From the NCBI GenBank assembly GCA_016187925.1, contig JACPIS010000010.1, forward strand, positions 1 through 64,000: a DNA stretch of 64,000 nt. The letters run 5' to 3'. The translations under genes were made by a program, and so were the position numbers. This DNA is from Opitutia bacterium (GTDB taxonomy: Bacteria > Verrucomicrobiota > Verrucomicrobiia > Opitutales > Opitutaceae). This document shows positions 2,846-36,156 of the stretch, one piece after another (position 1 is the first letter of the stretch; each line of letters begins with the position of its first letter). The notes below the pieces were generated by a model that did not search any database, had not been told where the DNA came from, and saw only the letters and a list, made by a program, of their open reading frames with translations.

Positions 2846-4333
2846 ATGAAGGGAGCCTTCCTCCACAGCCTCGGACTCTGCTTGCTCCTCGCCAGCGTCC
2901 GGGCGACGGATCTATCCGGAACTTGGAAAGCCGATCTTGTCCGTCGCGGCGACGTGCATCAGCCGCTCTATCTCGTGCTGCGTCAGTCGGGTGGGCGACT
3001 CGAAGGCCGTGTATTCGCCCCGGCCGGAGGCGAACTGCCTCTCCTCAATGCCCATTTCGAAGGTGGTGACGCAGTTTTCGACACGCAGTTTGGCATGCAT
3101 TATCGGCTTCGTTCCGAAGGTCCGTCCTTGCACGTCACGGTCCGCTACGAATGGAGGCCGACCGACGAAACAACGGCGATCCGAGTGGCGGACACCGAAA
3201 TCAATCCGCCAGCGGTCGTCCCGCTGCCTGCCTTGCGGCTGGTCCCGGACAACGGACTGGCCCGGACTCCTCCGATGGGTTGGAATAGCTGGAATAGGTT
3301 TGGAGAAACGATCGACGACCGGACGGTGCGGGAAATCGCGGACGCCCTGGTCAGCAGCGGCATGGCGGCAGCGGGCTACACCTATGTGACCATTGATGAC
3401 ACTTGGGAAGGTGAACGGGACGCCACCGGGCGAATCCGCCCCAATGGCAAGTTTCCCGATATGAAGGCGCTGGGTGATTATCTGCACAACCGGGGCCTGA
3501 AGTTTGGTATCTATTCCTCCCCCGGTACCACGACCTGCGCCGGCTACACCGGCAGTTACGGCCATGAGGAGCAGGACGCACGCACCTTTGCGGACTGGGG
3601 CGTCGACTATCTGAAATACGATTGGTGCAGCGCGGGACGCACCTACCGACTGGAGGAGCGTCGGGCGGCCTGCCAACGAATGGGCGAGGCGCTGGCGGGT
3701 TGCGGACGCCCCATTGTCTACAGCTTGTCCGAGTCCTCGCCGGGCAGTGATGTCTGGCTCTGGGGCCCCCGGACCGGCGCCAATCTCTGGCGCACGACCA
3801 CCGACATCCACGACAATTGGGTCGAGATGGAGCAAATCGGGTTCAACCAGGGCAACTTTACCCCCTACGCCGGACCAGGGCACTGGAACGACCCGGACAT
3901 GCTGGAGGTCGGCAACGGCGGCATGACCGACACGGAGTACAAGACACATTTCAGTCTCTGGTGCCTGCTGGCGGCCCCACTCATCGCGGGAAATGATCTG
4001 CGCCAGATGTCCGCCGCTACCCTGTCCATCCTCACGAACCGCGAATTGATCGCTGTCGATCAGGATCCGTTGGGGAAACAGGCAACACGCCGGCTTGCGC
4101 GCGACGGTCTAGAGGTCTGGTGCAAGCCGCTCCAAGATGGAGGCATGGCGATCGGACTCTTTAACCGCACCAAGGAAACGATACTGAGCGCCCTGACTTG
4201 GCCGGAACTCGGCCTGCTTCAACCGCCCGTCAGTCTGAGAGATCTCTGGGAACACCGCGACCTGAAGGCGGCACCGGACGGCTATCGCAGCCGCATCCCT
4301 GCCCATGGGACGATTGTTCTGCGCGTTCGGTGA
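2846..4333 (+). CDS. Alpha-galactosidase, glycoside hydrolase family 27
   Basis: This 495-residue protein hydrolyses terminal alpha-galactosyl residues, such as the side chains of galactomannan. A signal peptide (MKGAFLHSLGLCLLLASVRA) is followed by a small beta-rich region of about 110 residues, then the GH27 barrel from the diagnostic LARTPPMGWNSWN at about residue 135. The nucleophile is Asp259 in YLKYDWCS; the acid/base Asp lies in WNDPDMLEVGN near residue 350. A short C-terminal beta domain completes the protein. The ATG at 2846 sits just before the signal peptide; the frame opens earlier inside the ligase gene. It lies 19 bases after the ligase, and its stop is only 15 bases before palindrome site 2, which gives the next gene its own promoter. 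Confidence 0.93.
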   Translation: MKGAFLHSLGLCLLLASVRATDLSGTWKADLVRRGDVHQPLYLVLRQSGGRLEGRVFAPAGGELPLLNAHFEGGDAVFDTQFGMHYRLRSEGPSLHVTVRYEWRPTDETTAIRVADTEINPPAVVPLPALRLVPDNGLARTPPMGWNSWNRFGETIDDRTVREIADALVSSGMAAAGYTYVTIDDTWEGERDATGRIRPNGKFPDMKALGDYLHNRGLKFGIYSSPGTTTCAGYTGSYGHEEQDARTFADWGVDYLKYDWCSAGRTYRLEERRAACQRMGEALAGCGRPIVYSLSESSPGSDVWLWGPRTGANLWRTTTDIHDNWVEMEQIGFNQGNFTPYAGPGHWNDPDMLEVGNGGMTDTEYKTHFSLWCLLAAPLIAGNDLRQMSAATLSILTNRELIAVDQDPLGKQATRRLARDGLEVWCKPLQDGGMAIGLFNRTKETILSALTWPELGLLQPPVSLRDLWEHRDLKAAPDGYRSRIPAHGTIVLRVR

Positions 4334-4368: not shown

Positions 4369-4395
4369 TGACGGCGGAGCGACGCCTGATAGAGT
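4368..4395 (+). promoter_or_regulatory. Predicted promoter of the beta-mannosidase gene
   Basis: TGAC directly follows the palindrome (4369-4372) as a -35-like core. TAGAGT at 4390-4395 is a plausible -10, 17 bases further on. Transcription would start near 4402, at or next to the chosen ATG at 4403, implying a leaderless or almost leaderless message. Confidence 0.5.
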
Positions 4396-4402
4396 GTCGC
4401 AC

Positions 4403-6892
4403 ATGCCCTTTCCCGCACGACAGCTCCCGCTCAATTCCGCACCGTGGCAGTTTCGCGACGCCAGTGTCCGCGGTCCATGGCGTGACGCGGTTGTGCCGGG
4501 TTGCGTCCACCGGGACCTGCGGCGCCACGGCGTAATCCCCGATCCCTTCCACGGCACCAACGAACTCGAACTCCAATGGATCGAAGAGCACGACTGGGAA
4601 TACACGGCCGTCGTCGATGTTCCCGCCGCTTTGCTCGCCGAGGAAGCGGTCGATCTGGTCTGCGACGGCCTCGACACCGTGGCCACCGTCACGCTCAACG
4701 GCCGGATCGTCGCCCACACCGAGAACATGTTCATCGGCTACCGCTGGAACGTCCGCAACTTCCTGCGGACGGGAGCCAACCGACTCACCCTCCGTTTCGA
4801 CAGCGCGCTGCGCTACATCCGAACGCATCGCAAAGGCCACACCTCCCGCGAATGCAACGATCCCGTCGGCCGCTGCCAGGTCATCCGCAAGCAGCCGTGC
4901 CAATTCGGCTGGGACTGGGGCCCGCGGTTTGTCACCGCCGGAATCTGGCGCGACATCCGCCTCGAAGCCTGGAGCGGCAACCGGCTCGAGGGCGTCCGCG
5001 TCCGGCAGCAGCCCGGCGCCGGCGAATCCGTCATACTCCTCGCCACGCCGGAACTCACCCGGAACGAGCGCCGCATCACCTGCCATCATCGCCTCACGCT
5101 CGACGGCGTTCTCGTGACGGAGGGAACAGGCACCACGGTGCGCGTCGAGCATCCGCAACTTTGGTGGCCCAATGGTCACGGGACACAGCCGCTCTACACC
5201 CTGGAGCTCGCGTTCACTTGCCGCGACGGCTCTCCGCTGGGGCGCTGGTCGCGGCGGCTCGGGCTGCGCACCGTCGCACTGGACCGTTCGCCGGATCCGG
5301 CCGGCGGTGAATTTTTCCGCTTCATTGTGAACGACCGCCCCCTCTTCGCCAAGGGCGCGAACTGGATCCCCGCCCACAGCTTCGTGGCCGGGTTGAAGCG
5401 CACCGACTACGCCCGCGACCTGCGCGCCGCCGCCGAAGCGCACATGAACATGATCCGGGTCTGGGGCGGCGGCATCTACGAGAGCGAACATTTCTACGAC
5501 CTCTGCGACGAACTCGGCCTGCTGGTCTGGCAGGACTTCATGTTCGCGTGCGACATCTATCCCGGCGACGCGGCCTTCCGGCGGAGTGTGCGGGCGGAAG
5601 CCGCCCACCAGGTGCGCCGGTTGCGGCACCACGCCTGCCTCGCCCTCTGGTCCGGCAACAACGAGATCGAGCAGATCAACCCCGAGCTGCTCAAGCAGCC
5701 GCGCCTGCGACGCAACTACGACAACCTCTTCCTCCGCGACCTGCCCGCGGCAGTCGCCCGTCACGACGGCGTCACCGCCTACTGGCCGTCTTCCGCCCAC
5801 CGCCCCGACGGCGGTCTCGCTCATCCAGCCGGCGAACGCGGAGGCGACACGCATTTCTGGGACGTCTGGCACGCCCGCCATCCGGTTAAGGACTACGAGA
5901 AATATCGTTTCCGCTTCCTATCCGAGTTCGGCATGCAGAGCTACAGCTCGCCCGAGACCAACGCCACCTTCTGCCCCCGAGGCGCCGGCAACATCTTCGG
6001 CGCGGAGATGGAGAACCACCAGAAGAACCGCGCGGGCAACCAGATCATCCTCGACTATGTTTCGCGCCGCTATCGTTTCCCGAAATCACAGGACGCCCTC
6101 ATCTATCTCTCGCAGCTCAACCAGGCGCACTGCATGCAGACGGGAGTCGAGCATTGGCGGCGTCACATGCCGCATTGTATGGGCGCGCTCTACTGGCAGC
6201 TCAACGACTGCTGGCCCGTCGCCTCCTGGAGTTCCATCGAGTTCACCGGCCACTGGCGCGCCCTGCACCATGCTGCCCGGCGCTTCTTCGCCCCGCTGCT
6301 CGCCAGTGCGCACGTCCCCGGCGATGAGACGACCGTCACCGGCAACTACCGTCGCTCCACCGTGCGCGAGGTGCACCTTTACACCGTCTCGGATGCGCCC
6401 ACCCCGGCGCGCGGCCGCCTCCGCTGGGACCTCTTTCATGTCGACGGCCGCCGCCTGCTGCGCGGGAGCAAGCCAGTCATGCTCCGCTATGGCGAGAGTG
6501 TGCGCCAGCGCACCCTTGATCTGGCCGGCCCCATCGCCGCCCACGGCCGGGAGCGTCTGGTGCTCCGCATCGCGCTCGACGCAGGTAGCGCGCGGGTGAG
6601 TGAAGAGAGCGTCTTTCTGACCGCGCCGCGCTTCGTCGCACTGCCCCGCGCCCAAACCCGCGTGCGCGTGGCGATGACCGGGTCGGACAAAGTCATCCTG
6701 ACCTTCACCTCCGATGCGTTCCAGCACCGCTTCGCTTTCGAACTGCCGGGGATCGCACATCGGGTCAGCGACAACTACTTCGACTTGTACCCCGGCGAGC
6801 CCAAGGCGGTGCGGGTCCGGTTCGACCGCCCGCCATCCGCCGCGCGGCTGCGGCGCGTGCTGCGATACCGCTCGCTCGTCGACACCTACTGA
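4403..6892 (+). CDS. Beta-mannosidase, glycoside hydrolase family 2
   Basis: This 829-residue enzyme releases mannose from the non-reducing end of beta-mannosides. The GH2 layout is complete. An N-terminal jelly-roll contains the FGWDWGPR signature typical of beta-mannosidases, an immunoglobulin-like domain follows, and the TIM barrel carries acid/base Glu421 (WSGNNEIEQ) and nucleophile Glu508 (FLSEFGMQ). A C-terminal beta domain follows. There is no signal peptide, so it probably acts in the cytoplasm on imported oligosaccharides. ATG 4403 is preferred; an in-frame GTG at 4394 would add three residues but overlaps the predicted -10. It has its own operator and promoter although it follows the alpha-galactosidase closely. 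It is convergent with the nitrilase-family gene, 24 bases away. Confidence 0.93.
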   Translation: MPFPARQLPLNSAPWQFRDASVRGPWRDAVVPGCVHRDLRRHGVIPDPFHGTNELELQWIEEHDWEYTAVVDVPAALLAEEAVDLVCDGLDTVATVTLNGRIVAHTENMFIGYRWNVRNFLRTGANRLTLRFDSALRYIRTHRKGHTSRECNDPVGRCQVIRKQPCQFGWDWGPRFVTAGIWRDIRLEAWSGNRLEGVRVRQQPGAGESVILLATPELTRNERRITCHHRLTLDGVLVTEGTGTTVRVEHPQLWWPNGHGTQPLYTLELAFTCRDGSPLGRWSRRLGLRTVALDRSPDPAGGEFFRFIVNDRPLFAKGANWIPAHSFVAGLKRTDYARDLRAAAEAHMNMIRVWGGGIYESEHFYDLCDELGLLVWQDFMFACDIYPGDAAFRRSVRAEAAHQVRRLRHHACLALWSGNNEIEQINPELLKQPRLRRNYDNLFLRDLPAAVARHDGVTAYWPSSAHRPDGGLAHPAGERGGDTHFWDVWHARHPVKDYEKYRFRFLSEFGMQSYSSPETNATFCPRGAGNIFGAEMENHQKNRAGNQIILDYVSRRYRFPKSQDALIYLSQLNQAHCMQTGVEHWRRHMPHCMGALYWQLNDCWPVASWSSIEFTGHWRALHHAARRFFAPLLASAHVPGDETTVTGNYRRSTVREVHLYTVSDAPTPARGRLRWDLFHVDGRRLLRGSKPVMLRYGESVRQRTLDLAGPIAAHGRERLVLRIALDAGSARVSEESVFLTAPRFVALPRAQTRVRVAMTGSDKVILTFTSDAFQHRFAFELPGIAHRVSDNYFDLYPGEPKAVRVRFDRPPSAARLRRVLRYRSLVDTY

Positions 6893-16668: not shown

Positions 16669-17499
16669 ATGAAATATGCCCGCCTCAACCGTCTGTTCAA
16701 TCCCGGCACCGGCCGCTGTTTCGACGTGGCCATCGACCATGGCTTCTTCAACGAGGCCGGATTCCTCGCCGGCATCGAGAACCTGCCGAAAGCGATCACC
16801 ACGCTGGTCGCGGCGGCGCCCGACGCCATCCAGTTGACGGTCGGCCAGGCTCCGCACCTGCAGGCCGCCCCGGTCCGACCGAAGCCGGCCTTGGTGCTGC
16901 GCACCGATGTGGCCAACGTCTACGGCACGCAGCTGCCGCGCACGCTGTTTTCGCGCATGATCGCGGATCCGGTCGGCCAGGCGGTGCGGCTCGACGCCAC
17001 CTGCGTCGTCGTGAACCTCTTCCGTATCCCGGAGCAGCCGGAGGTGGCTGACCAATGCATCCAGAACATCCTCGCGCTGAAACCCGCCTGCGATCTGGCC
17101 GGTATGCCGCTGATGATCGAGCCGCTCGTCTTCCAGCCCAACGCCAAGGCCGGCGGCTACATGGTCGACGGCGATCCGCAGAAGATCATTCCGCTCGTGC
17201 GCCAGGCCGTCGAACTCGGGGCCGACATCATCAAGGCCGACCCCACCGACGATGTGTCGGTCTATCACAAGGTCGTGGAGACCGCCGGCGGCGTTCCCGT
17301 GCTCGTCCGCGGCGGCGGCCGCGTTTCCGACGAGGTTATTTTGCAACGCACGGCGGACCTCCTTGCCCAAGGGGCCAAGGGCATCGTCTATGGGCGCAAC
17401 ATCATCCAGCACCCGAAACCCGCGGCCATGACCCGCGCCCTGATGGCCATCCTCCACGAGAAGGCGACCCCGGCCCAGGCCGCCCGTTTCCTGCGCTGA
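16669..17499 (+). CDS. Class I (DhnA/FbaB-type) sugar-phosphate aldolase
   Basis: This 276-residue TIM-barrel aldolase belongs to the DeoC/LacD/DhnA group, which cleaves ketose phosphates through a Schiff base. The family opening FDVAIDHGFF is clear. The likely Schiff-base lysine is Lys189 in GADIIKADPTDD, followed by VPVLVRGGGR and GAKGIVYGRNIIQ, the phosphate-binding end of the barrel. ATG 16669 gives the normal N terminus (MKYARLNRLFNPGTGR); a TTG at 16651 would add six unlikely residues. It leads a tight run of five metabolic genes (11-base gap to the next). With the isomerase and PfkB kinase downstream, it would split the phosphorylated ketose into two trioses. Exact substrate (fructose-1-P, F1,6P2 or another) is inferred only. 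Confidence 0.87.
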   Translation: MKYARLNRLFNPGTGRCFDVAIDHGFFNEAGFLAGIENLPKAITTLVAAAPDAIQLTVGQAPHLQAAPVRPKPALVLRTDVANVYGTQLPRTLFSRMIADPVGQAVRLDATCVVVNLFRIPEQPEVADQCIQNILALKPACDLAGMPLMIEPLVFQPNAKAGGYMVDGDPQKIIPLVRQAVELGADIIKADPTDDVSVYHKVVETAGGVPVLVRGGGRVSDEVILQRTADLLAQGAKGIVYGRNIIQHPKPAAMTRALMAILHEKATPAQAARFLR

Positions 17500-17509
17500 T
17501 CTCCTTTCC

Positions 17510-18646
17510 ATGTCCCAAACACTCCTTGCCCCCCGCGTCGCCGTCATCGGCGCCGGCCTCATGGGCCGCGAAGTCGCCAGCGCCTTCGGTCGCTGGTTCT
17601 CCCTGCTCGACTGCCCGGTCCGACCCGAACTGGTCGCCGTCTGCGACGTGAATGCCGCCGCGCTGGACTGGTTCCGCCAAGTCCCCACGGTCCGTCACTT
17701 CGATCAGGACCACAAGACGATGCTCGCCCGATCCGACCTCGACGTCGTCTACGTCGCGGTCCCGCACCACTTGCACGAGGCGATCTACCTCGACGTGCTC
17801 CGCGCCGGCAAGGACCTCCTGGCCGAGAAACCCTTCGGCATCGATCTGGCCGCCGCCCGGCGCATCCGCGACGAGGGCGCAAAGCTCGGCCGTTTCGGCC
17901 GCGTCTCCTCCGAATTCCCGTTTCTGCCCGGCGTGCAGCGCGCGATCGCGGCGGCGCAGTCCGGCCGCCTCGGCCGGGTCCTCTCCCTGCGCAACAGTTT
18001 CCTGCATTCCAGCGACCTCGACCCGACCAAGCCGATCAACTGGAAACGCCAGAATCGCTTTTGCGGCGAGGCCGGCGTGATGAACGACCTCGGCCTCCAC
18101 GTCGCGCACGTGCCGCTGCGCCTCGGCTGGAAGCCGGTCCGGCTCTACGCCCAGCTCCAGAAAATCTACACCGCGCGCCCGGACGGCAAAGGCGGCACGG
18201 CACCCTGCGACACGTGGGACAACGCCACGCTGCATTGCACGGTCGACCTGCCCGGCCAGCCCGGCGTCCCGCTCCGACTGGAGACGAAGCGCATGAGCCC
18301 GACCGACACCAATTCCTGGGAGATCGAGATTCTCGGCACCGAAGGCGGCGTGCGCTATTCCACCAAGCGCCCCAAGACGCTGGAGACGTATACCCGCGGG
18401 AGCGAGCAGGCTTGGTCCGCCACGGACCTCGGTTTCGGCATGCCCTTCAAATCGATCACGGGCGGCATCTTCGAGCCCGGCTTCCCGGATCTGCTCCAGC
18501 AGATGTGGGCGGCGTTCCTCGCCGAGCGCGCCGGCAAACTGGAAAAACGTTTTGGCTGCGCCACACCGGATGAAGCCGTGACGCACCACGAACTGTGGGC
18601 CGCCGCCCTGAAGAGCCACGCCACCCAGACGGTGGTGACGCTCTGA
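17510..18646 (+). CDS. Gfo/Idh/MocA family oxidoreductase
   Basis: This 378-residue NAD(P)-dependent sugar or cyclitol dehydrogenase has the Rossmann motif VAVIGAGLMGREV at residues 9-21. Its family lysine sits in LLAEKPFGIDL near residue 107. The C-terminal alpha/beta substrate domain shows GEAGVMNDLGLHVAHV. No signal peptide is present, so it is cytoplasmic. It sits 10 bases after the aldolase and 8 bases before the mutarotase-like gene, clearly in one operon. The substrate is not predictable; inositol-, glucose- and uronate-type activities all occur in this family. It differs from the other Gfo/Idh protein at 37035-38159. Confidence 0.88.
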   Translation: MSQTLLAPRVAVIGAGLMGREVASAFGRWFSLLDCPVRPELVAVCDVNAAALDWFRQVPTVRHFDQDHKTMLARSDLDVVYVAVPHHLHEAIYLDVLRAGKDLLAEKPFGIDLAAARRIRDEGAKLGRFGRVSSEFPFLPGVQRAIAAAQSGRLGRVLSLRNSFLHSSDLDPTKPINWKRQNRFCGEAGVMNDLGLHVAHVPLRLGWKPVRLYAQLQKIYTARPDGKGGTAPCDTWDNATLHCTVDLPGQPGVPLRLETKRMSPTDTNSWEIEILGTEGGVRYSTKRPKTLETYTRGSEQAWSATDLGFGMPFKSITGGIFEPGFPDLLQQMWAAFLAERAGKLEKRFGCATPDEAVTHHELWAAALKSHATQTVVTL

Positions 18647-18654
18647 CCCGCAGG

Positions 18655-19815
18655 ATGACGAACCAACTCCAGCTCCGAAGGCTGGAAGGGCAGCCGTCCT
18701 GGCGACTGCGGAGCAACCGGGTGACGGCCTTCCTCACCCGCGCCGGCGGTCATCTCGGTCCGGTCACTTTCGAAACGGCGGCCGGACCGATCCAGCCTTT
18801 CGCCCTCGCTCCTTGGGCCACGGAGAAACTGGCGACGAAGACCGCGCCGGTTTTGCGCGTGCTGCGGGGCGACTTCTTCTGCGCGCCCTTCGGCGGAAAC
18901 GACTCGCCTTGGCGAGGGGAACGGCACCCCGCTCACGGCGAGGCGGCCAATCGCAACTGGACTCTCCGCCGCCACACCGCGCGGAGCGGCGGAGTCGAAC
19001 TCACCGCGGAGCTGCGCCCGCGCGTGCGCGCCGGACGGGTCGTGAAGCAGATCACACTGCGTCCCGACGAAACCAACCTCTACTGCCGGCACGAACTGCA
19101 CGGTTTCACCGGGCCCGTGTGCCTCGGCCATCACGCCATGCTCAAGTTTCCCGACGAGCCGGGCTCGGGCCGCATCGCGCTTTCGCCCTGGCACCACGGT
19201 CGGGTTTGCCCGCGTCCATTCGAGAACGCCGCCCACGGTGGCTATTCCGCGCTCGCGATCGGTGCACGCTTCCGTTCCCTCGACCACGTCCCGCTCGCGC
19301 ACGGCGGCTGGGCCGACCTGACGCGCTACCCGGCCCGCGCGGGCTACGAGGATCTGGTCATGGTTTCGGCCCGGCGATCCGCCGGACGCACCGCACTGGC
19401 CTGGACGACCGTCACATTCCCTCGGCAAAGGTACGTCTGGTTCGCGCTGAAGGACCCGCGTGTGCTCGCCTCCACTGTCCTTTGGCACTCGAACGGCGGG
19501 CGGCATTATCCGCCGTGGAACGGCCGTCATCGCGGAGTGCTCGGGCTCGAGGAGGTGACGAGTTATTTCCACTTCGGCCTGGCCGAGTCCGCCGCCCCGA
19601 ATCTGTTGTCCCGCGCGGGAGTGCCGACGGTGCTCCGCCTCGATCCTGTCCGGCCGCTGACGGTGCGCTATGTAATGGGTGTGGCGGCCATCCCCCGCGG
19701 CTTCGACGTCGTCCGTCGGGTGCTTTTCCGCCGCGACCATATCATCCTCTGCGCCCGCTCGGGTCGCCGGGTGGAACACCCCGTCGATCTCTCCTTCTTC
19801 CCTGACACCCCATGA
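18655..19815 (+). CDS. Uncharacterised protein, probably galactose-mutarotase-like fold
   Basis: This 386-residue protein has no family motif I recognise with certainty. It is rich in short beta-strand-like segments, with conserved-looking pieces such as AGGHLGPVTF near the start and LGHHAMLKFPD near residue 160. The layout is reminiscent of aldose-1-epimerase/DUF4432-type mutarotase folds. There is no signal peptide or membrane segment, so it is cytoplasmic. ATG 18655 is preferred to the upstream in-frame start at 18595, which lies inside the oxidoreductase gene. Its stop overlaps the start of the isomerase gene by ATGA, so the two are translationally coupled. A role in anomer conversion before isomerisation would fit but is inference. 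Confidence 0.6.
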   Translation: MTNQLQLRRLEGQPSWRLRSNRVTAFLTRAGGHLGPVTFETAAGPIQPFALAPWATEKLATKTAPVLRVLRGDFFCAPFGGNDSPWRGERHPAHGEAANRNWTLRRHTARSGGVELTAELRPRVRAGRVVKQITLRPDETNLYCRHELHGFTGPVCLGHHAMLKFPDEPGSGRIALSPWHHGRVCPRPFENAAHGGYSALAIGARFRSLDHVPLAHGGWADLTRYPARAGYEDLVMVSARRSAGRTALAWTTVTFPRQRYVWFALKDPRVLASTVLWHSNGGRHYPPWNGRHRGVLGLEEVTSYFHFGLAESAAPNLLSRAGVPTVLRLDPVRPLTVRYVMGVAAIPRGFDVVRRVLFRRDHIILCARSGRRVEHPVDLSFFPDTP

Positions 19816-20390
19816 AACGCTCCATCATCAACCGTGCTTTCCACGATGCGTCCGCCTGCTTCGCCCGTCACGGCTGGGCCCTGCCCCCGAACGCGAAATG
19901 GGACATCACCGACTTCGGCTTGGGCGACTTCGCCCGCTTCGGTCTCACCCTGATCAACCTGGCCGAGGAACGGGAGTACTGCGAAAAACTCATGTACGCC
20001 CGGCGCGGGCAGACCACGCCCTGGCACACCCACGCCAGGAAGAAGGAGGACATCATCTGCCGGGCGGGCGAACTCACGCTGGAACTCGCCTCCGCCAAGC
20101 CGGGCACCACGCAGGCCGCGACCGGTGCGTTCGCGGTCAACGTCAACGGCGAGCCGCGAAGCCTGGCCGCCGGCTCGAAGCTGGTCTTGTCCGCCGGCTC
20201 GCGCGTGACGCTCGTGCCGGGAGTATGGCACGCGTTCTACCCGACCAGCGATGAATGCATCATCGGCGAGGTCTCCACCGCCAACGACGATCAACACGAC
20301 AACTTTTTCCTCGACTCCGATGTCGGCCGTTTCCCCGGCGTCGAAGAGGACGCGGCGCCCGCCATCCGGCTCTTGAGCGACCGTCGCTGA
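19812..20390 (+). CDS. D-lyxose / D-mannose isomerase family (cupin ketol-isomerase)
   Basis: This 192-residue cupin protein matches the D-lyxose ketol-isomerase family (former DUF1498), which interconverts D-lyxose and D-xylulose and also D-mannose and D-fructose. The diagnostic segments are MKRSIINRAF at the start, WDITDFGLGDFARFGLTL, and the metal site TTPWHTHARKKEDIICRAGE with His72, His74 and Glu79. A further His lies in VPGVWHAFYP. It is cytoplasmic and coupled to the mutarotase-like gene by a 4-base overlap, with the PfkB kinase 11 bases downstream. In a locus with mannanase, beta-mannosidase and alpha-mannosidase, mannose to fructose is the likely reaction. The family assignment is firm, but the in vivo sugar is inferred. 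Confidence 0.87.
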   Translation: MKRSIINRAFHDASACFARHGWALPPNAKWDITDFGLGDFARFGLTLINLAEEREYCEKLMYARRGQTTPWHTHARKKEDIICRAGELTLELASAKPGTTQAATGAFAVNVNGEPRSLAAGSKLVLSAGSRVTLVPGVWHAFYPTSDECIIGEVSTANDDQHDNFFLDSDVGRFPGVEEDAAPAIRLLSDRR

Positions 20391-20401
20391 CGCCCCCGGC
20401 C

Positions 20402-21523
20402 ATGAACACCATCCCTGCCCGCGCCCAACTCGCCGCCCGCCTGCGCGGTCACACTGCTCCTCTGCCCGTCGTGACCATCGGCTTCGACGGCTTCGTGGAC
20501 GAGATGATCCGGTTGGTGGCCGAGCGGCAGAGCCTCGAGTCCTTCACGCCGGTCCCGAGCATCGCGGCCTTCGGAGAACTGGTGAGCGGTGCCGCCGGAC
20601 ACAGCAGCCTGCGGGAGATTGTCGTGACCGCCGTGCACGCGGGCGGTTGTGCCGTCAACATGGGCGACGGCCTCGCGGCGCTGGGCGTTCCCGTGGATGC
20701 CTATGCCACGCTGGGCATGCCGCCCCACCCGGCCTTCGCTCCCATCACCGGCCGTTTCCGTCAGGCACACAGCTGGGGCCGCGAACCCGGGCGGACCCTT
20801 GCCTACGAGTTCGCCGATGGAAAACTCATGTTCAGCTCGGTCACCCAGCTGGCGGAGCTCACCGCGGAGAAGGCGGGCGAACTCCTGGCCGACGGCGCCT
20901 ATGCCCGCTCCTGCCGGGAGGCCCGGCTGATCGCGCTCACCGACTGGACGTTGTATCCGCACATGACCGCAGTCTGGCGGCGCCTGCAAGAGGGCGTCCA
21001 TCGCTGGCTCACGCATCGTCCGGATTTTTTCATCGACCTCGTCGACCCCTCCAGCCGCGCTCCGGCCGACATCCGCGCCATGCTGGACGTGCTGCCCGGA
21101 TTTGAAACGGCCGGTCCGCTCACGCTCGGACTGAACGGCAACGAGGCGAACATCCTGGCGCGCCTCCTCGGTCTGTCCATCTGCGCGGAAAGCGAACCGG
21201 CGAGCACGGCAACTCTCGCCGAGCAGCTGCGCACGCGACTCGGCATCAGCACGGTCGTCATCCATCACATCAAGTCGGCCGCGCTTGCGGCCGCGGACGG
21301 GAGCGCCGCATTGGCCGGTCCCTTCTGTCCCAAACCGAAAAAGAGCACCGGCGCGGGCGATCGTTTCAACGCCGGCTACGCGCTCGGCCTGCTTCTGCGG
21401 CTGTCGCCCGCTGAGCGGCTGCTCTGCGCCTGCGGCGCCTCGGGCTTCTTCGTGCGCGAGTCTCGCAGCGCCAGCCTGCCCGAACTCGCCGACTTCCTAG
21501 GTCATCCGGCATGGCCGGGCTGA
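20402..21523 (+). CDS. PfkB-family carbohydrate kinase
   Basis: This 373-residue ribokinase-like enzyme has PVVTIGFDGFVDE near the N terminus, the HAGGCAVNMGDGLAALG substrate-binding glycine motif, and the signature KSTGAGDRFNAGYALGLLL. Asp320 is the likely catalytic base. It probably phosphorylates the ketose made by the neighbouring isomerase, feeding the class I aldolase at the head of the operon. ATG 20402 gives the normal N terminus; the frame upstream overlaps the isomerase gene. The last four codons overlap a decayed copy of the 5' end of the lipoprotein gene at 26127, which begins here. The family is longer than usual by roughly 50 residues, mainly before the ATP site. Confidence 0.87.
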   Translation: MNTIPARAQLAARLRGHTAPLPVVTIGFDGFVDEMIRLVAERQSLESFTPVPSIAAFGELVSGAAGHSSLREIVVTAVHAGGCAVNMGDGLAALGVPVDAYATLGMPPHPAFAPITGRFRQAHSWGREPGRTLAYEFADGKLMFSSVTQLAELTAEKAGELLADGAYARSCREARLIALTDWTLYPHMTAVWRRLQEGVHRWLTHRPDFFIDLVDPSSRAPADIRAMLDVLPGFETAGPLTLGLNGNEANILARLLGLSICAESEPASTATLAEQLRTRLGISTVVIHHIKSAALAAADGSAALAGPFCPKPKKSTGAGDRFNAGYALGLLLRLSPAERLLCACGASGFFVRESRSASLPELADFLGHPAWPG

Positions 21524-21650
21524 AGCCCAAATTCCTCCTCTCCATGCCGGTCCATCCTCACGCGGTTGCCCGCTGGTTGCTCCTGCCGGCCGGTCTGTTG
21601 CTGCTCTCCCGCGGCGACACACCGGATCGCGACGCCAGCCCCGCCGCCTT
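21511..21650 (+). pseudogene. Decayed duplicate of the 5' end of the 26127 lipoprotein gene
   Basis: About 140 bases match 26158-26297 closely. Translated, LKPKFLLSMPVHPHAVARWL aligns with LKPKFPLSVPVNPRAVARWL of the intact lipoprotein, followed by the shared LLPAGLLLLS. The lipobox is destroyed: LLLLSGCGTPDR has become LLLLSRGDTPDR, losing the lipidated Cys. Similarity fades after about residue 47 and no beta-helix follows. The open frame continues to 21771 without recognisable content. The rest of this 331-base gap (21651-21854) holds no gene, palindrome or terminator that I can see. Confidence 0.75.
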
Positions 21651-21854: not shown

Positions 21855-23828
21855 ATGAACATGAATCGCCGCATCATAAATCGCCTGGTGTGCAGTGGAG
21901 TCCTGCTTCTGGGAACAGCGCATCGAGTCCTGGCCGCAGATCCCCTCGCCGTCTTCCGCCTCGAGGCCGACCCCGTCCATGCCCGGATTCCCGTGTTGAG
22001 CTGGGACACGGAAGGCGGAGACCGGGCCAGGATGAATCTGCTGCGGGCCGACACCGCCGTCGGCTTGCGGGTGAAAATGGACGGGCAATGGCGCAGTGGC
22101 GGGACGTTCGCGACCCGGACCGAGAAAGCCGGCAGCGCGGAAACGTGCTACCGCCTCACCCTTGCTCCGGATGCAGAGTTGGTATGGCGGCTTCAGCCGG
22201 GTGCAGGCCGGCTGACGATGAGTTTCGCCGCCGAAGGCGTCGGATTGCGTCGGGTGGAAGGCCTCGAGTTGGAATTCCCCTTCGACCCGCGGGTGGCCGC
22301 CACCACGCTCCTCCCCAAGATTTGGGACGACGCAGGAAAGCTTCACCTGCCGGCCATCATCAATGCACCGGATTTCGGCCCGATGCTTCTCCGCGCCGCT
22401 CCGCAGGCGGACCTCAAGGGCCGGCTGACCGGCAGCCGCACCAACCACATCGTCGATTTCACGCTGGAACTGTCCGTCCCGCAGCCGGGCTCGGCCATCA
22501 CACTCTCACTGGAGCCGGTGCACCTGCCGGCGCCCGCGGGCGTGCCGGACCCCTCGCTGTGGCGCGCAGCGCGGCGGGGCTGGTTCAATGCCATCGAACC
22601 GAGTGCCCAGTGGGGGGATTGGGGCTATGGCAACCGCGTGTTCGGCGCCCCTCCGGGAATTCTCGCCAACAATGTGATCAGCGACCCGGTCAGCTGCCTG
22701 ATCCATATTTGGGCCGATCAAGCCCTGCTGACGCCGTCACTGCCGGCGGATATTTCCATGCCCAGCTTGGTGCGCCGCACCGTGGATTGGTGGCTTGACG
22801 ACCGCACCAAGCCCACCGGCGAGGTCATCGCTTACTGGGATTATGCGGACATGCTCGACGCCAATGCCAGCCCGCTGATCTCCGCGTGGGATTATGTCGA
22901 GGCCAGCCGCGACCGCGCCTGGCTGACGCGGCGCATCGAGCGTCTGGAGTTCATCGCCCAGTATCTGGTCAAGCGCGACGTGGACGACGACGGGCTGGTG
23001 GAGTCGACCCACAGCGGCAATTACGGAACCCTCGTCGAACCGATGCGCGCCGGGTCCGCTTACGACACCATCAACGCCGGCTACAAAGACGCCTACTGCA
23101 ACGCCCTGGTCTACCGTGCATTCAGATGCCTGGCCGACTTGGAAAAGCAATTGCAGCGCACGGTGCAGCAGCAGCACTACACCGCGCGGGCCGATCGCCT
23201 CAAGGCCGCCTACCTCAAAACCTTTTTCAATCCCGCGACCGGCTGGCTGGCCTGGTGGAAGAGCGAGGACGGCGAGATGCACGACTTGGCCTCGCCCATG
23301 ATCAGTAGCCTGGCGATTTGCTACGGCTTGGTCGAACCGTCGCAGGGACGCCAGATACTCGACCGGCTCTGGAAGAAGATCGAAGCCGTCGGGTTCAAAC
23401 GGTTCGACCTCGGCGTGCCGCTCACGCTGGTCCCCGTCCGGCGCGGCGACTACCTGATCGGATTGGAGGGGCCCGGTGCTCCCAAGAAAGAGGACGGCTC
23501 GGACGGGTTCGGCTACTATCTCAACGGCGGATGCTGCGTGAGCGACGCAGTCTATTTCATCACCGCGCTGCACATCGCCGGCGAACACGCGCGCGGCGAT
23601 CGTATCCTGCATGCGATGGTGGAACGGCAGGAGCGGGGCGTTTTCCCCAACGGCGGCGGCTTTCAGAACGGCGTGATCAACGAAGGCGGGCGCGGCGCCG
23701 AGTTTTACACTTGGGACGGCGAGCCCAGCGGCTACGAGGGGCACTTGACCTACAGTTTCTCGTTCCTGCAGGCGATCCTGCTGCGCGAACCGGCGTGGCG
23801 CGCGCGGCTTTATCGTCCACTCCAGTGA
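21855..23828 (+). CDS. Secreted six-hairpin (alpha/alpha)6 glycosidase-like protein
   Basis: This 657-residue protein has a signal peptide (residues 1 to about 27, ending HRVLA) and an N-terminal beta-sandwich region. A helical catalytic region from about residue 240 carries segments typical of (alpha/alpha)6 toroid glycosidases such as GH15/37/63/78/94-like enzymes. These include DVDDDGLVESTHSGNYG, YDTINAGYKDAYCNALVYRA and FFNPATGWLAWWKSEDG. Candidate acids are in DDDGLVE and in the C-terminal WDGEPSGYEGHLTYSFS. I cannot assign a GH family. ATG 21855 (MNMNRRI) or 21861 could be used; both give the same mature protein. It follows the kinase after the 331-base gap holding the decayed repeat. 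The symporter gene follows 285 bases later, in a gap with no visible feature. Confidence 0.72.
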   Translation: MNMNRRIINRLVCSGVLLLGTAHRVLAADPLAVFRLEADPVHARIPVLSWDTEGGDRARMNLLRADTAVGLRVKMDGQWRSGGTFATRTEKAGSAETCYRLTLAPDAELVWRLQPGAGRLTMSFAAEGVGLRRVEGLELEFPFDPRVAATTLLPKIWDDAGKLHLPAIINAPDFGPMLLRAAPQADLKGRLTGSRTNHIVDFTLELSVPQPGSAITLSLEPVHLPAPAGVPDPSLWRAARRGWFNAIEPSAQWGDWGYGNRVFGAPPGILANNVISDPVSCLIHIWADQALLTPSLPADISMPSLVRRTVDWWLDDRTKPTGEVIAYWDYADMLDANASPLISAWDYVEASRDRAWLTRRIERLEFIAQYLVKRDVDDDGLVESTHSGNYGTLVEPMRAGSAYDTINAGYKDAYCNALVYRAFRCLADLEKQLQRTVQQQHYTARADRLKAAYLKTFFNPATGWLAWWKSEDGEMHDLASPMISSLAICYGLVEPSQGRQILDRLWKKIEAVGFKRFDLGVPLTLVPVRRGDYLIGLEGPGAPKKEDGSDGFGYYLNGGCCVSDAVYFITALHIAGEHARGDRILHAMVERQERGVFPNGGGFQNGVINEGGRGAEFYTWDGEPSGYEGHLTYSFSFLQAILLREPAWRARLYRPLQ

Positions 23829-24113: not shown

Positions 24114-26078
24114 ATGCATACCCTCGCTCCCCTCGACTACGCCATCATCCTCGGCTACCTCGGCCTGAGCCTGGTCATGGGCGTCCTCATGACGCGCAAG
24201 GCCAGCGCCGGCCTCGACCACTACTTCCTCGGGGGCCGCACGCTGCCGTGGTATCTCCTCGGGGTCGCCGGCATGGCCAACTGGTTCGATCTCACCGGCA
24301 CGATGCTCATCACCTCGTTCCTCTACCTGCTGGGGCCGCGCGGGCTTTATATCGAGTTTAGGGGCGGAGCGGTGCTGGTCCTCGCCTTCATGCTGGTTTA
24401 CACCGGCAAATGGCACCGCCGCTCCGGCTGCATGACCGGGGCGGAATGGATGACCTACCGTTTCGGCGAGGGCAAGGCGGCGGAAGGGGTGCGCCTGCTG
24501 TCAGCGGTGATCAACATCCTCATCACGGTCATGGGCCTGGCCTATCTCATCCGGGGAGTGAGTTTGTTCCTAGGCATGTTTTTCCCCTGGCCGCCGCTCT
24601 ACACCACGCTGGGGCTGATCACCGTGACGACGCTCTACACCATGGGCTCGGGTTTCTACGGTGTGGTCCTGACGGATCTGGTGCAGGGGCTCATCGTCAT
24701 CGCCTCGTGCATCATCATCGCTTTTCAGGCGTGGCAGCTGGTGCCCGACACCGCCAGCCTGGCGGCCGTCTCCGCGCACGTCACCGGCAATCCCAACTGG
24801 ACCGACGCCCATCCCGCCTGGCACACGCCGATGCCTCCGGGTTACGAGCAGTATTCGCTGCTGCTCGTGATGATGTTGTTTTATCTGGCGCGTAACACCA
24901 TCGGCGGTGCGGGCCTGGGCGCCGAACCGCGCTACTTCGGTGCCCGCAGCGACCGCGACTGCGGACTGCAGTCACTCCTGCAGGGCATCATGGTGATGTT
25001 CCGCTGGCCGCTGATGATCGGTTTCGCGGTCATGGGAATCTATCTGGTGTATTCCTTCTATCCCGATCCGACCGTGGTCCAGCGCACCGCCGAACTGATC
25101 CAGGTCCACTATCCGCACACTACGGCGGCCTTCTGGCACGATCTGACCAGCGACATCATCAACGCCCCGGCAAAGTATCCGCCCGAACTGATCAACCAGC
25201 TCCAAGCCCTCCTCGGCCACGATTGGCAGGGCAAGCTGCCGCTGGTCGGCATCCGGGGCACGGTCAATCCCGAGCAGATCCTGCCCGCCGTGCTCATGAA
25301 CATGATCCCGACGGGGCTGAAAGGCCTGATCGTCGTGGCCATGTTCGCCGCGATGATGTCCTGCAAAAACGGCTTGGTGAACATGTCCAGCGGCTACTTC
25401 GTCAAGGACATCTACCAGTACTTCCTCCGGCCCGAGGCTTCCAATCGCGAGCTGATCATCGCCGCTTACCTCTCGACGCTGGGCATCGTCATCGCGGGCT
25501 TCTACTTCGGCATCGCGACCACCAGCATCAACAACATCGCCGGCTGGAGTCTCATGAGCCTGAGCGCGGGTCAGCTCGCGCCGCAGATGCTGCGGCTCTA
25601 CTGGTGGCGCTGCAACGCCTGGGGCATCGTCGGCGGGATGGTGCTCGGCGGCGTGGGCGCGGTGGGGCAACGCGCCCTCTACCCGCAGATGCCCGAGGCG
25701 ATCCAATTTCTGATCATGGTCGCGCTCTCGTTCGGTGGCACGATCGGCGGGTCGCTGCTCACCGCGCCCACCCCGCTGCCCGTGCTGCGGAATTTCTACC
25801 GCACGACGCGGCCCTTCGGGCTGTGGGGGCCGCTGCGCGGGGAATTCCAGGGCGCCGAGCGCGCGGCCGTCGACCGGGAGAACCGCACGGACATGATCGC
25901 CGTCCCCTTCGCCCTGTTGTGGCAGGTCACTCTGTTCCTCCTGCCCATGCAGCTGGTGATCAAATCCTACCACTCCTTCTGGTGCACACTGCCGCTCTTC
26001 CTCGTCGGCCTGACCGGCATGTATTTCTTCTGGTGGAGGCCGCTCATGCGCAAAGAGACGCCGGCAGCGGCGGCATGA
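24114..26078 (+). CDS. Sodium:solute symporter (SSS family)
   Basis: This 654-residue inner-membrane protein has 13 or more hydrophobic segments. SSS features are the N-terminal YAIILGYLGLSLVMG helix, YFLGGRTLPWYLLGVAGMANWFD as sodium-site region, the conserved FYGVVLTDLVQG, and GLIVVAMFAAMMSCKNGLVN. It should import a monosaccharide or small oligosaccharide with Na+. A soluble loop of about 80 residues around DLTSDIINAPAKYPPELINQ is a shared peculiarity with the second symporter at 40241-42232; the two are roughly two-thirds identical by eye over the full length. The ATG at 24114 (MHTLAPLDYAI) matches the paralogue start (MHSLATIDYVI), which supports both. The beta-helix lipoprotein follows after 48 bases. 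Confidence 0.92.
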   Translation: MHTLAPLDYAIILGYLGLSLVMGVLMTRKASAGLDHYFLGGRTLPWYLLGVAGMANWFDLTGTMLITSFLYLLGPRGLYIEFRGGAVLVLAFMLVYTGKWHRRSGCMTGAEWMTYRFGEGKAAEGVRLLSAVINILITVMGLAYLIRGVSLFLGMFFPWPPLYTTLGLITVTTLYTMGSGFYGVVLTDLVQGLIVIASCIIIAFQAWQLVPDTASLAAVSAHVTGNPNWTDAHPAWHTPMPPGYEQYSLLLVMMLFYLARNTIGGAGLGAEPRYFGARSDRDCGLQSLLQGIMVMFRWPLMIGFAVMGIYLVYSFYPDPTVVQRTAELIQVHYPHTTAAFWHDLTSDIINAPAKYPPELINQLQALLGHDWQGKLPLVGIRGTVNPEQILPAVLMNMIPTGLKGLIVVAMFAAMMSCKNGLVNMSSGYFVKDIYQYFLRPEASNRELIIAAYLSTLGIVIAGFYFGIATTSINNIAGWSLMSLSAGQLAPQMLRLYWWRCNAWGIVGGMVLGGVGAVGQRALYPQMPEAIQFLIMVALSFGGTIGGSLLTAPTPLPVLRNFYRTTRPFGLWGPLRGEFQGAERAAVDRENRTDMIAVPFALLWQVTLFLLPMQLVIKSYHSFWCTLPLFLVGLTGMYFFWWRPLMRKETPAAAA

Positions 26079-32817: not shown

Positions 32818-35055
32818 TTACTGGCGGGTGATAACGGCCGCCACGTCCTCGGTGTAGTCCGGCAAGGACAGCCGCAAGGAACCGTCTGACACCAAGTCCG
32901 GAGTCGTGCCAATCAGCTGGGCCGTGGCCGGGTCGAACCACTCGGCCTTGAACCGGCCGCGGGGCCAGTCCTGCAGAATCGCCTGATGTCCCTGTTGCCT
33001 CGGGCCAGCCTCACGCAGAGCGCCGGCCGGATACACCATCGAGGGAGACACGACGTAGACGACGGCACGGTCATCCTGCCGCAAGGCGACCGCCTCGGGC
33101 GGGAAACCCGCGGAGTCCGCCGGGCTGACGACCAGCCCTTGGACAGAGCAGCCGTCGAGGATTGTCCAACCGGCCTCGGCAATCTCGAGCCGGACGGTGT
33201 GCTCGCCCGGTGGTACGGCCACGGTGAAGGTTTTGTCGACCAACTGACGGTAAGGGAGGTCCGGCTTGGGGGTGTCGATGTGGAGCCGGCTGACTTCCTT
33301 CCCATCGACAAGGCCGCGGAGATCGGGAGTCCCCATCACGGCGCGGAGGTGCACGGTAAGGGCGGCGGTCGCGCCCCACTGCCCCGAGACTTCCAGTGAC
33401 TGCGGCCCGAAACGGGCGTCCGTTCCGCGCAGGATGGCCGCGAGCGAACCGTACGCTCGCTCCGCGCTCAGCGGACCGGTCAACCGCACCTTCCCCGGGA
33501 CCTTGCTGCGCAGGAGTCGGTTCAAATTCACGATGCCGGAATATTCCGCCGGGGCGGCCCGCTCCCCAGTCGGCGCGACCTCCGCAGTCACCGTCGCCGG
33601 GCGCCAGTCGCCGGCCTCCCAACCTGCATGCTTGAGGATGGAGCTGAGCGCAGCGAAGACCGGGTAGACGTTGCTCTGATCCATCTCGTTCCACCACCAC
33701 GTCAACGGAGTGCCTGCGGCGCCGCCAACCGCCCCGCCCCAGAGCGACTGGCGCAGGCCGCGCAGATGGGGATCGGAGGCGCGCGCCCAGCCGAGCGAGT
33801 CGACGCCATACTCGCCGATCACGACCGGCTTGCCGTAGCGCCGGTGGAAGTCCTCCGCTAGCACCGCGTTGGCCCGGGCCGGAGCGGACTCGTCGTAGGA
33901 GTGATACACGGCGAAATCCATCTCCGGAATCTTCCAGATGATCTCCCGGTCCGAGCCGCCCGTCAGGCTGGTGGTCACGAGATGTCCGTACGGATCATGG
34001 GCCTTCAGCCAGCGTCCGACCTCGCCATGCCAGGCCGCTACGTCCACCCCGCGCAGCCCGCGCGGCTCAAAGACATTGTCGATTTCGTTGAAAAACTGCC
34101 ACGCGAGCAGCCGGGGGCTGGCGCCATACCGCGCGACCAGGTAGCGGAGACGCTTCTCGTAGATCGTCCGCGCCGCCGGGCTGGTGAAGAAATCGTTGGG
34201 CGCCGGACATGGGCCGCCGTTGGCGGCGTTGTACGGATTTTTCGGCCAGAAATTTCCGCTGCCACCCCAGGCCGGATTGTCGGATTGAAACCGGCCATGG
34301 AAGTCCAGGCAGAGGATCAGATAGATGCCTTCCCGCTCCGCCGCTGCGAAAACCCGGTCGAGCTGCCACGACGAATCCTGACGGTAGCGCGTCAGGCTGT
34401 CCGGATCCTGCTCGATGGCGGCCCACCAGGGCGCGATCCAGAGACGGGCACAGTTCTGCCCGGAATCATGGAGCGACTTGAACCAGCGGTCGTAATCCCG
34501 CGTGCCGCCCTTTTCCGGCCAACAGACATTTTCACCGATCAGCCGCAATGGGCGGCCGTCTGAAGTCTGAAAGTAGCGTCGGTCGGCCGCGATCCCCACC
34601 CAGCCGTGGCGCTCCCCGATGGTCTCCGCGGCGACGGCAAAGGTGAAGCCCGCGAGCGTGGCCGGAGGTTTCCCGGCTCGAGTCGCGGTGACGGTCATCG
34701 CGTAGTTTCCCGGTTCGGTCGGAGTGTACCGCAAGCGCCAGCCCGGCTCGCCGGTCGCCGACAGTTTCTCGCCGGTCTCCGTCTCCGTGCGGGTGAAATC
34801 CTGGAACCAGAACGCCGGCACCCGCTGAACTAGGCCGGACGGCGTGGAGATCTCGGCGTCGAGAGCGAGCTCGTCGGGATCGCAGTTATTGGCCGTCACC
34901 GGCGCACCATCGAGCCGGAACTCGACGGGGATCCACAGACGGGGCGAAGCGAGGGGCTGCACGGTGATGGTTGCCGTTGCTGCCGAGCTTGTGGTCAGCA
35001 GCAGGCACAGGCACAGACCCGGGAGGAGGCGGAGACATTGCGTGGTGGTTTTCAT
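32818..35055 (-). CDS. Secreted DUF5060-type glycosidase, clan GH-A barrel
   Basis: This 745-residue protein has a signal peptide (MKTTTQCLRLLPGLCLCLLLTTSSA) and an N-terminal beta-sandwich of about 110 residues like DUF5060. A TIM barrel follows with acid/base Glu324 (WQFFNEIDNV) and nucleophile Glu415 (PVVIGEYGVDSLG), the normal GH5-like arrangement. The C-terminal 250 residues are beta-rich and probably bind carbohydrate. ATG 35055 opens the signal peptide; the frame upstream runs through the GH26 gene. The start overlaps the GH26 stop by ATGA, so the two are translationally coupled. Placed between GH26 and GH28, it is likely another endo-acting enzyme on the same glycan. Confidence 0.82.
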   Translation of the reverse strand: MKTTTQCLRLLPGLCLCLLLTTSSAATATITVQPLASPRLWIPVEFRLDGAPVTANNCDPDELALDAEISTPSGLVQRVPAFWFQDFTRTETETGEKLSATGEPGWRLRYTPTEPGNYAMTVTATRAGKPPATLAGFTFAVAAETIGERHGWVGIAADRRYFQTSDGRPLRLIGENVCWPEKGGTRDYDRWFKSLHDSGQNCARLWIAPWWAAIEQDPDSLTRYRQDSSWQLDRVFAAAEREGIYLILCLDFHGRFQSDNPAWGGSGNFWPKNPYNAANGGPCPAPNDFFTSPAARTIYEKRLRYLVARYGASPRLLAWQFFNEIDNVFEPRGLRGVDVAAWHGEVGRWLKAHDPYGHLVTTSLTGGSDREIIWKIPEMDFAVYHSYDESAPARANAVLAEDFHRRYGKPVVIGEYGVDSLGWARASDPHLRGLRQSLWGGAVGGAAGTPLTWWWNEMDQSNVYPVFAALSSILKHAGWEAGDWRPATVTAEVAPTGERAAPAEYSGIVNLNRLLRSKVPGKVRLTGPLSAERAYGSLAAILRGTDARFGPQSLEVSGQWGATAALTVHLRAVMGTPDLRGLVDGKEVSRLHIDTPKPDLPYRQLVDKTFTVAVPPGEHTVRLEIAEAGWTILDGCSVQGLVVSPADSAGFPPEAVALRQDDRAVVYVVSPSMVYPAGALREAGPRQQGHQAILQDWPRGRFKAEWFDPATAQLIGTTPDLVSDGSLRLSLPDYTEDVAAVITRQ

Positions 35056-36149: not shown

Positions 36150-36156
36150 CAGAGTC

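Follow-up and report, generated by a model that had tools for sequence, protein, structure and literature searches.

Several described systems come close to the locus considered here. In mammalian liver, fructolysis by ketohexokinase and aldolase B includes the cleavage of fructose-1-phosphate (PMC11519228). Haloarchaea degrade fructose and mannitol by ketohexokinase, 1-phosphofructokinase (1-PFK), and a class I fructose-1,6-bisphosphate aldolase (FBA) (PMC11519228). In the sulfo-Embden-Meyerhof-Parnas (sulfo-EMP) operon yihRSVT, mutarotase, isomerase, PfkB kinase, and class I aldolase reactions follow one another, and a synthetic pathway engineered for D-xylose proceeds via xylulose-1-phosphate (PMC5029101). 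The subject of the present analysis is a five-gene operon, ALD-GFO-MUT-LYI-KHK, at positions 16669-21523 of a 64,000-nucleotide stretch of DNA from an Opitutia bacterium. This stretch, referred to as the window, comprises positions 1-64000 of one contig of a 3.99-Mb genome in 48 contigs. We consider it fairly probable that the operon is the monosaccharide end of a mannan-utilization region, taking mannose via fructose and fructose-1-phosphate to dihydroxyacetone phosphate (DHAP) and glyceraldehyde.

With liver fructolysis the predicted route shares the intermediates fructose, fructose-1-phosphate, DHAP, and glyceraldehyde; it differs in starting at mannose, in its prokaryotic-family kinase, and in its DhnA/LacD-kind aldolase. 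The prokaryotic ketohexokinase family, as assigned by Pfam, and a class I aldolase are common to the haloarchaeal route and the window, whereas 1-PFK is missing from the operon and, above cut-off, from the genome, and the sugar would come from mannose, not from a polyol. The order of chemistry is that of the sulfo-EMP operon, from which the window departs in the family of its isomerase, in the neighbouring genes, and in the sugar presumed. The synthetic pathway is a ketose-1-phosphate route like the pentose alternative weighed below; it was designed for D-xylose, while the sugar of the window is most likely a hexose. Each single step is already known somewhere. A literature search by title and abstract start, with most subscription journals outside its coverage, returned neither their union in one bacterial operon for mannose, as a route of mannose isomerase, ketohexokinase, and fructose-1-phosphate aldolase, nor the protein family c3 described below.

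Predicted pathway of the operon

LYI would isomerize free D-mannose to D-fructose, assisted by MUT; KHK would phosphorylate fructose at C1; and ALD, forming a Schiff base on Lys189, would split fructose-1-phosphate to DHAP and D-glyceraldehyde, DHAP then entering central metabolism. Every substrate and reaction of this scheme is inferred; what is observed is the order of the genes, the families to which they belong, their conserved motifs, the mannan genes nearby, the recurrence in other genomes, and the lack of any 1-PFK match above cut-off. The compact five-gene module of the original prediction, with gaps of at most 11 bases or overlap, was confirmed by coordinates, by Pfam families, and by its recurrence in related loci. 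Its sequence of mannose, fructose, phosphorylation, and class I cleavage is supported, with predicted substrates, by the mannan genes, by mannosidases in isomerase operons, by the ketohexokinase family match, and by the missing 1-PFK. None of the five proteins scores above a curated NCBIfam cut-off. For MUT, the first start of the open reading frame (ORF), at 18595, overlaps GFO, while the ATG at 18655 does not.

A scan with KHK of a collection holding one genome per species (84,980 species) yielded 70 loci. By tblastn, a Lyx_isomer relative occurs in 23 of them and ALD in five (L024, L025, L027, L038, and L044, the last two being separate clusters in a single genome), and all five contain ALD, GFO, isomerase, and kinase together. 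In L025 all five genes stand in the window's order; the four further loci keep the succession aldolase-oxidoreductase-isomerase-kinase, L024 having c3 at the position of MUT. The five-gene arrangement is not due to chance. Genes in the fetched loci were called by an amino-acid composition score and by similarity, so that neighbours can be missed; Lut-type, GlpX-like, phosphomannose isomerase-like, and aminotransferase-like neighbours were recognized by eye.

LYI matches PF07385 (Lyx_isomer) with 174.4 bits (cut-off 20.8) and the D-lyxose isomerase structure 3kmh with an E value of 9.3e-29. In at least 32 of 33 LYI sequences H72, H74, K78-E79-D80, H140, E153, and D159-D160, which align to 3kmh, are conserved, as are the motifs TPxHxHxxKKEDI and GEVSTANDDxxDN; this alignment omits L185, which is the same locus as L129, and L169, because L056 and L169 match the same query proteins at 100%. 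The aligned residues of 3kmh are, we assume, the cupin metal ligands and catalytic acids. LYI shares family, conserved cupin residues, and the expected mannose-fructose activity with the D-lyxose/D-mannose isomerases of PF07385, but it is a short form that stays far under the NCBIfam equivalog cut-off (NF051472, 134.9 versus 350 bits). Enzymes characterized as D-lyxose isomerases convert D-mannose to D-fructose and back (PMC6746899).

KHK reaches 157.5 bits against the prokaryotic ketohexokinase family PF25270 (cut-off 35), and no fewer than 57 of 58 close sequences, a set that includes duplicates, keep the motif GAGDRFN. No solved structure close to it in sequence was found (best E value 0.0027). 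The Haloarcula ketohexokinase, presumably a member of PF25270 to judge by the name of that family, makes fructose-1-phosphate and is inactive on six other named sugars, all of them aldoses (PMC11519228). A 1-PFK above cut-off is absent from the window genome, where six proteins, KHK itself included, match the model and the best scores 78.5 versus 292 bits; the top three look by eye RfaE-, fructokinase-, and ribokinase-like. The haloarchaeal step from fructose-1-phosphate to fructose-1,6-bisphosphate therefore has no obvious enzyme here, and direct cleavage of fructose-1-phosphate by ALD would be the simplest reading. Around the KHK homologue of Haloferax mucosum (L087), neither FruK nor FBA was recognized by eye among ORFs of at least 200 amino acids.

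ALD matches PF01791 (DeoC/LacD) with 124.4 bits (cut-off 23.8), and the nearest sequence in the PDB is MJ0400 (4.1e-23), followed by LsrF. Invariant in all 26 aligned sequences are D23-H24-G25, E151, K189, R214-G215-G216, and G242-R243-N244. Lys189 is the candidate Schiff-base lysine, as the sequence alignment suggests: the stretch of MJ0400 aligned to this region reads IVKTSYTGD, whose lysine is presumably the Schiff-base residue of that enzyme. The tyrosine of MMYPRG in MJ0400 aligns with Gln156 of ALD, a position occupied by Gln in 20, Arg in five, and Ala in one of the 26 sequences; ALD is therefore not a plain archaeal-type FBA, and it scores 97 versus 430 bits on the archaeal class I FBA equivalog NF040816. 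Among 387 genomes sampled from the phylum, 22 have an orthologue with at least 60% identity, the window genome counted; all remaining matches have at most 43%.

GFO accompanies ALD closely. In 20 of 26 rows with an ALD of more than 55% identity (the window is not among them, and L129 and L185 are one locus) it is found on the same fetched stretch, and in 17 of these 20 it is adjacent; it is missing from L130-L133, L140, and L142. Among the tallied LYI rows, GFO accompanies c3 only in L024 and otherwise tracks ALD. The c3 cluster of L056 contains an aldehyde dehydrogenase in place of GFO, which weakly suggests an aldehyde product as the substrate. Tentatively, GFO would most likely carry out a redox step, either on the aldehyde formed by the aldolase or on free sugar. 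MUT stays below the cut-off of PF01263 (Aldose_epim; 13.8 versus 27 bits), and its structure, predicted with only moderate quality (mean pLDDT 64.6), matches galactose mutarotase 4bze with a Foldseek E value of 3.6e-11.

If the proposed pathway is correct, bacteria would gain a way of cleaving fructose-1-phosphate that draws on mannose derived from mannan, and a job would be assigned to a kinase family of which, within the literature covered, only haloarchaeal enzymes were found tested in print. A physiological role would be named for the short D-lyxose-isomerase-like cupins, the unannotated family c3, present in many Verrucomicrobiota records, would become a predicted aldolase, and pathway maps that route all mannose via mannose-6-phosphate would need correction.

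Mannan surroundings and the identity of the sugar

The best answer to the question of the sugar comes from the other genes of the window, which include several mannan-related glycoside hydrolases (GH; Table 1); a TonB-receptor plug and a GH28-like gene are also present. Elsewhere, GH38 lies within the LYI operon itself, in L029 (GH38-LYI-KHK), L167 (c3-LYI-PfkB2-GH38), and L183 (GH38-LYI-PfkB2), PfkB2 being a different PfkB kinase; the GH38 protein of L167 is 59% identical to that of the window. GH2 stands beside LYI in L173, with the Ig_mannosidase domain, and in L176, without it. Of the 22 genomes with a window-type LYI, 18 carry GH38, against 187 of 365 other sampled genomes (Fisher p 0.004). 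All 15 genomes reached via the LYI loci of the KHK search carry it, but none of the 12 genomes with a XylA-like isomerase does (12 of 22 searched; Fisher p 0.001 for nine of them); it is also missing from G338, which has an LYI-PfkB2 mix. Window-type here denotes a match that starts at profile position 51 or later with an E value of at most 1e-30, which holds for 22 of 108 matching genomes; weaker matches starting near position 53 (E value 1e-9 or worse) were left out of the count. Twenty of the 22 loci were fetched, the window is the twenty-first, and G401 was left out; of these 21, 15 have a kinase or an aldolase within 6 kb, the window included. An isolate of the Opitutales grows excellently on mannose and does not grow on lyxose, xylose, or mannitol (PMC13274419).

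Table 1. Features of the window and of related loci, with positions, strand, and supporting matches.
Feature	Position	Strand	Support
GH27 alpha-galactosidase	2849..4333	+	PF16499 8.8e-68
GH2 with mannosidase Ig domains (Mannosidase_ig, Ig_mannosidase), beta-mannosidase-like	4394..6892	+	PF22666 1.4e-57, PF17753 6.7e-11, PF17786 1.3e-7
ALD: DhnA/LacD-type class I aldolase, predicted ketose-1-phosphate cleavage	16669..17499	+	PF01791 6.9e-36
GFO: Gfo/Idh/MocA oxidoreductase	17510..18646	+	PF01408 2.6e-17, PF22725 8.4e-9; gap of 10 bases before
MUT: mutarotase-like protein	18655..19815	+	Aldose_epim E 0.038, sub-threshold; gap of 8 bases before
LYI: D-lyxose/D-mannose isomerase-family cupin, predicted mannose-fructose isomerase	19812..20390	+	PF07385 2.6e-51; 4-base overlap with MUT
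KHK: PfkB-superfamily kinase, prokaryotic ketohexokinase family	20402..21523	+	PF25270 6.9e-46, PF00294; gap of 11 bases before
(alpha/alpha)6 glycosidase-like protein, downstream, outside the core operon	21855..23828	+	Bac_rhamnosid6H 9.4e-7
Sodium/solute symporter, candidate sugar importer	24114..26078	+	PF00474 6e-27
GH26 (beta-mannanase family)	35052..36254	-	PF02156 3e-48
GH38 alpha-mannosidase	44092..46890	-	PF01074 3e-32, PF07748, PF09261
GH5 glycosidase	50073..51170	-	PF00150 3.9e-24
c3, with isomerase and/or kinase	L041:7181-8236, L056:5860-6906, L059:7373-8389, and 21 more loci		
Mannitol-dehydrogenase/D-lyxose-isomerase fusion	L060:6940-8622 (member scanned); related ORFs in L069, L071-L075		

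Several observations weigh against the mannose pathway. The GH38 association is confounded by relatedness, the genomes being related and the p-values not independent evidence of function. Genes similar to the window's GH38, GH2, or GH26 lie near five of 44 LYI loci and two of 86 others, in a search that missed L029, covered stretches of differing length, and counted nine distant LYI (28-41% identity) among the 44; the two loci without LYI are L156, a KHK locus, and L161, further along the window's own contig. Every D-lyxose isomerase in the table of PMC6746899 is less efficient on D-mannose than on D-lyxose (ratios 0.0165 to 0.8607 among the entries covered), and in six of the 21 window-type loci no kinase or aldolase lies within 6 kb. 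In L030, L039, L040, L044, and L068 the kinase or the gene beside it is followed by genes of the GlcD/GlcF type, and in L038, L043, and L047 by a fused form; in these relatives a C2 or 2-hydroxyacid product would fit better than glyceraldehyde. GFO fits nowhere in the simple scheme; this objection, raised at the outset, holds, and GFO tracks the aldolase in related clusters. The 1-PFK cut-off is strict, as all 14 control genomes match the model and only four of the 14 exceed it. Finally, the window genome has a phosphomannose isomerase, four phosphofructokinase-family genes, and a PfkB protein that by eye is fructokinase-like, so the operon would be an added route, not an obligatory bypass, and the ordinary mannose-6-phosphate route may also run in this bacterium. 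Of the bypass that had been proposed around mannose-6-phosphate and the usual phosphofructokinase, the separate route is thus still predicted, while the genes of the usual one are present as well.

That another sugar might be meant had been conceded from the beginning, and the main rival is indeed a pentose: LYI would convert D-lyxose to D-xylulose, the kinase would form D-xylulose-1-phosphate, and the aldolase would release DHAP and glycolaldehyde, the latter passing to glycolate for oxidation by GlcDF. D-Lyxose is the better substrate of the tabulated characterized enzymes (PMC6746899), the GlcD/GlcF-type genes of some relatives would suit glycolate or another 2-hydroxyacid, and XylA-like isomerases hold the isomerase position in other aldolase clusters. 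The surroundings, however, point to mannan and not to a pentosan, GH38 occurs in isomerase operons, and no GlcDF was recognized by eye beside the window operon; the GlcD/GlcF-type pair of L134 scores under both the GlcD and the GlcF cut-offs. XylB above cut-off is found in 16 of the 22 aldolase-bearing genomes (the window genome is without it), so these 16 do not need the module as a xylose route. The XylA-like query had no match in the window genome and found canonical-length xylose isomerases in most other genomes searched. Taken together, we regard the pentose substrate as rather unlikely. A 6-deoxyhexose of the rhamnose or fucose type, from which the aldolase would produce DHAP and lactaldehyde for oxidation to lactate, is unlikely. 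The downstream gene of the window weakly matches a rhamnosidase domain, the cluster of L056 encloses an aldehyde dehydrogenase with Lut-type genes nearby (by eye), and L125 has an L-rhamnose mutarotase (TIGR02625, 154 bits versus 99.6) and a GH78-family enzyme beside its aldolase cluster. L125, though, uses a XylA-like isomerase and another kinase instead of LYI and KHK, and RhaM is absent from the window genome, occurring in 10 of the 22 genomes and adjoining the aldolase only in G397. The configuration favoured by D-lyxose isomerases is, moreover, the mirror image of L-rhamnose.

As in haloarchaea, KHK could form fructose-1-phosphate, another kinase fructose-1,6-bisphosphate, and ALD could be an ordinary bisphosphate aldolase; Haloarcula uses just such a set of ketohexokinase, 1-PFK, and class I FBA (PMC11519228), and ALD belongs to the fold family that holds archaeal FBA. 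Given its score on the archaeal FBA model, and since the operon has no 1-PFK and the genome no match to one above cut-off, this arrangement appears about as improbable as the 6-deoxyhexose. A sulfo-EMP kind of pathway, in which 6-deoxy-6-sulfo sugars such as sulfoquinovose would be the substrates of the isomerase, the PfkB kinase, and the class I aldolase, is highly improbable. It would agree with the chemistry order of YihR-YihS-YihV-YihT (PMC9594981), and the structure predicted for c3 has YihT and sulfohexulose-1-phosphate aldolase among its matches; but the known sulfoquinovose isomerases belong to other families (YihS to PF07221, SqvD to PF02952; PMC9594981) than LYI, and no sulfolactaldehyde reductase was recognized in the operon. 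With this difference in isomerase family and the mannan-active neighbours, sulfoquinovose was rejected.

Exchange of parts in related loci

The predicted mannose module of the window has relatives in which parts are replaced. In other aldolase clusters the isomerase is a XylA-like TIM barrel, which among solved structures comes closest to short-form xylose isomerases (4.1e-44) and scores 178.9 bits against the xylA_Arthro cut-off of 447; the kinase of these clusters is PfkB2. L129 is a mixed cluster, ALD-GFO-LYI-PfkB2. In loci of Planctomycetes a mannitol-dehydrogenase-type protein is fused to a Lyx_isomer domain upstream of KHK, and in L183 a Mannitol_dh_C protein follows the kinase. With mannitol-dehydrogenase-type domains fused to LYI relatives or standing beside them, this polyol context fits fructose, the ketose that mannose and mannitol share.

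In kinase or isomerase loci without ALD, the place of the aldolase is occupied by c3, a protein of about 351 residues. Among its tallied rows nine have KHK, three PfkB2, and four neither kinase; this tally and that of GH neighbours count both members of L056/L169 and of L129/L185. L024 carries both ALD and c3. The one member scanned matches no Pfam family at E values up to 1. The structure predicted from 21 sequences (mean pLDDT 80.5, pTM 0.83) has, among the Foldseek matches listed, LsrF, ADH synthase of M. jannaschii, and tagatose-bisphosphate and archaeal fructose-bisphosphate aldolases (E values 2.3e-8 to 1.2e-6), and it aligns to 2qjg with Z 21.5 and a root-mean-square deviation of 3.3 over 251 residues (VIA-align). 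An invariant lysine, K237 in L041 numbering, lies in FLKIxYxGP, which resembles the IVKTSYTGD of MJ0400. From position and predicted fold, c3 and ALD seem to be two aldolases of one fold serving the same place. Among the records with c3, isomerase, and kinase, those of Coraliomargarita sp. SDUM461004 (L056) and Botrimarina hoheduenensis Pla111 (L059) should be of cultured strains, as they are not marked as metagenome-assembled genomes.

More tentatively, and with somewhat less than even confidence, we propose that Verrucomicrobiota and Planctomycetota share a modular fructolysis akin to that of liver, in which an exchangeable front, LYI (from mannose), XylA-like isomerase, or mannitol-dehydrogenase-type protein, would supply fructose from free hexose and be combined with the kinases KHK or PfkB2, members of different subfamilies that would act at C1, and with the class I aldolases ALD or c3, c3 then representing a new fructose-1-phosphate aldolase family.

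Further observations

The aldolase cluster of L125 (3114-13818) contains, besides the XylA-like isomerase, the L-rhamnose mutarotase, and the GH78-family enzyme, a GH95-like gene (by eye); it is possibly a rhamnose pathway with non-standard enzymes. In L130-L133, ALD paralogues (69-72% identical) without GFO lie beside genes that by eye are class III aminotransferase-like or FGGY-kinase-like, and they probably belong to another pathway. Proteins of the uroporphyrinogen-decarboxylase family stand just upstream of GH38-LYI in L183 (5662-6705, Pfam 5.8e-61) and just upstream of the kinase in L031 (7927-8937, by eye). In Coraliomargarita, upstream and on the same strand (L056:1-4926), there is a second kinase of the family, 29% identical, with a DUF4432 protein; the Lut-type genes of this locus, recognized by eye, are near this second kinase.

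In the window, a second sodium/solute symporter, similar by eye to the one at 24114-26078, is located at 40241-42232, and a symporter of the same kind, likewise recognized by eye, adjoins the KHK orthologue of L023. At the stop codon of KHK, a stretch of about 128 bases (21521-21648) is a diverged copy of 26167-26294, in the first part of the beta-helix gene at 26127, and is perhaps the remnant of a gene lost between kinase and glycosidase.

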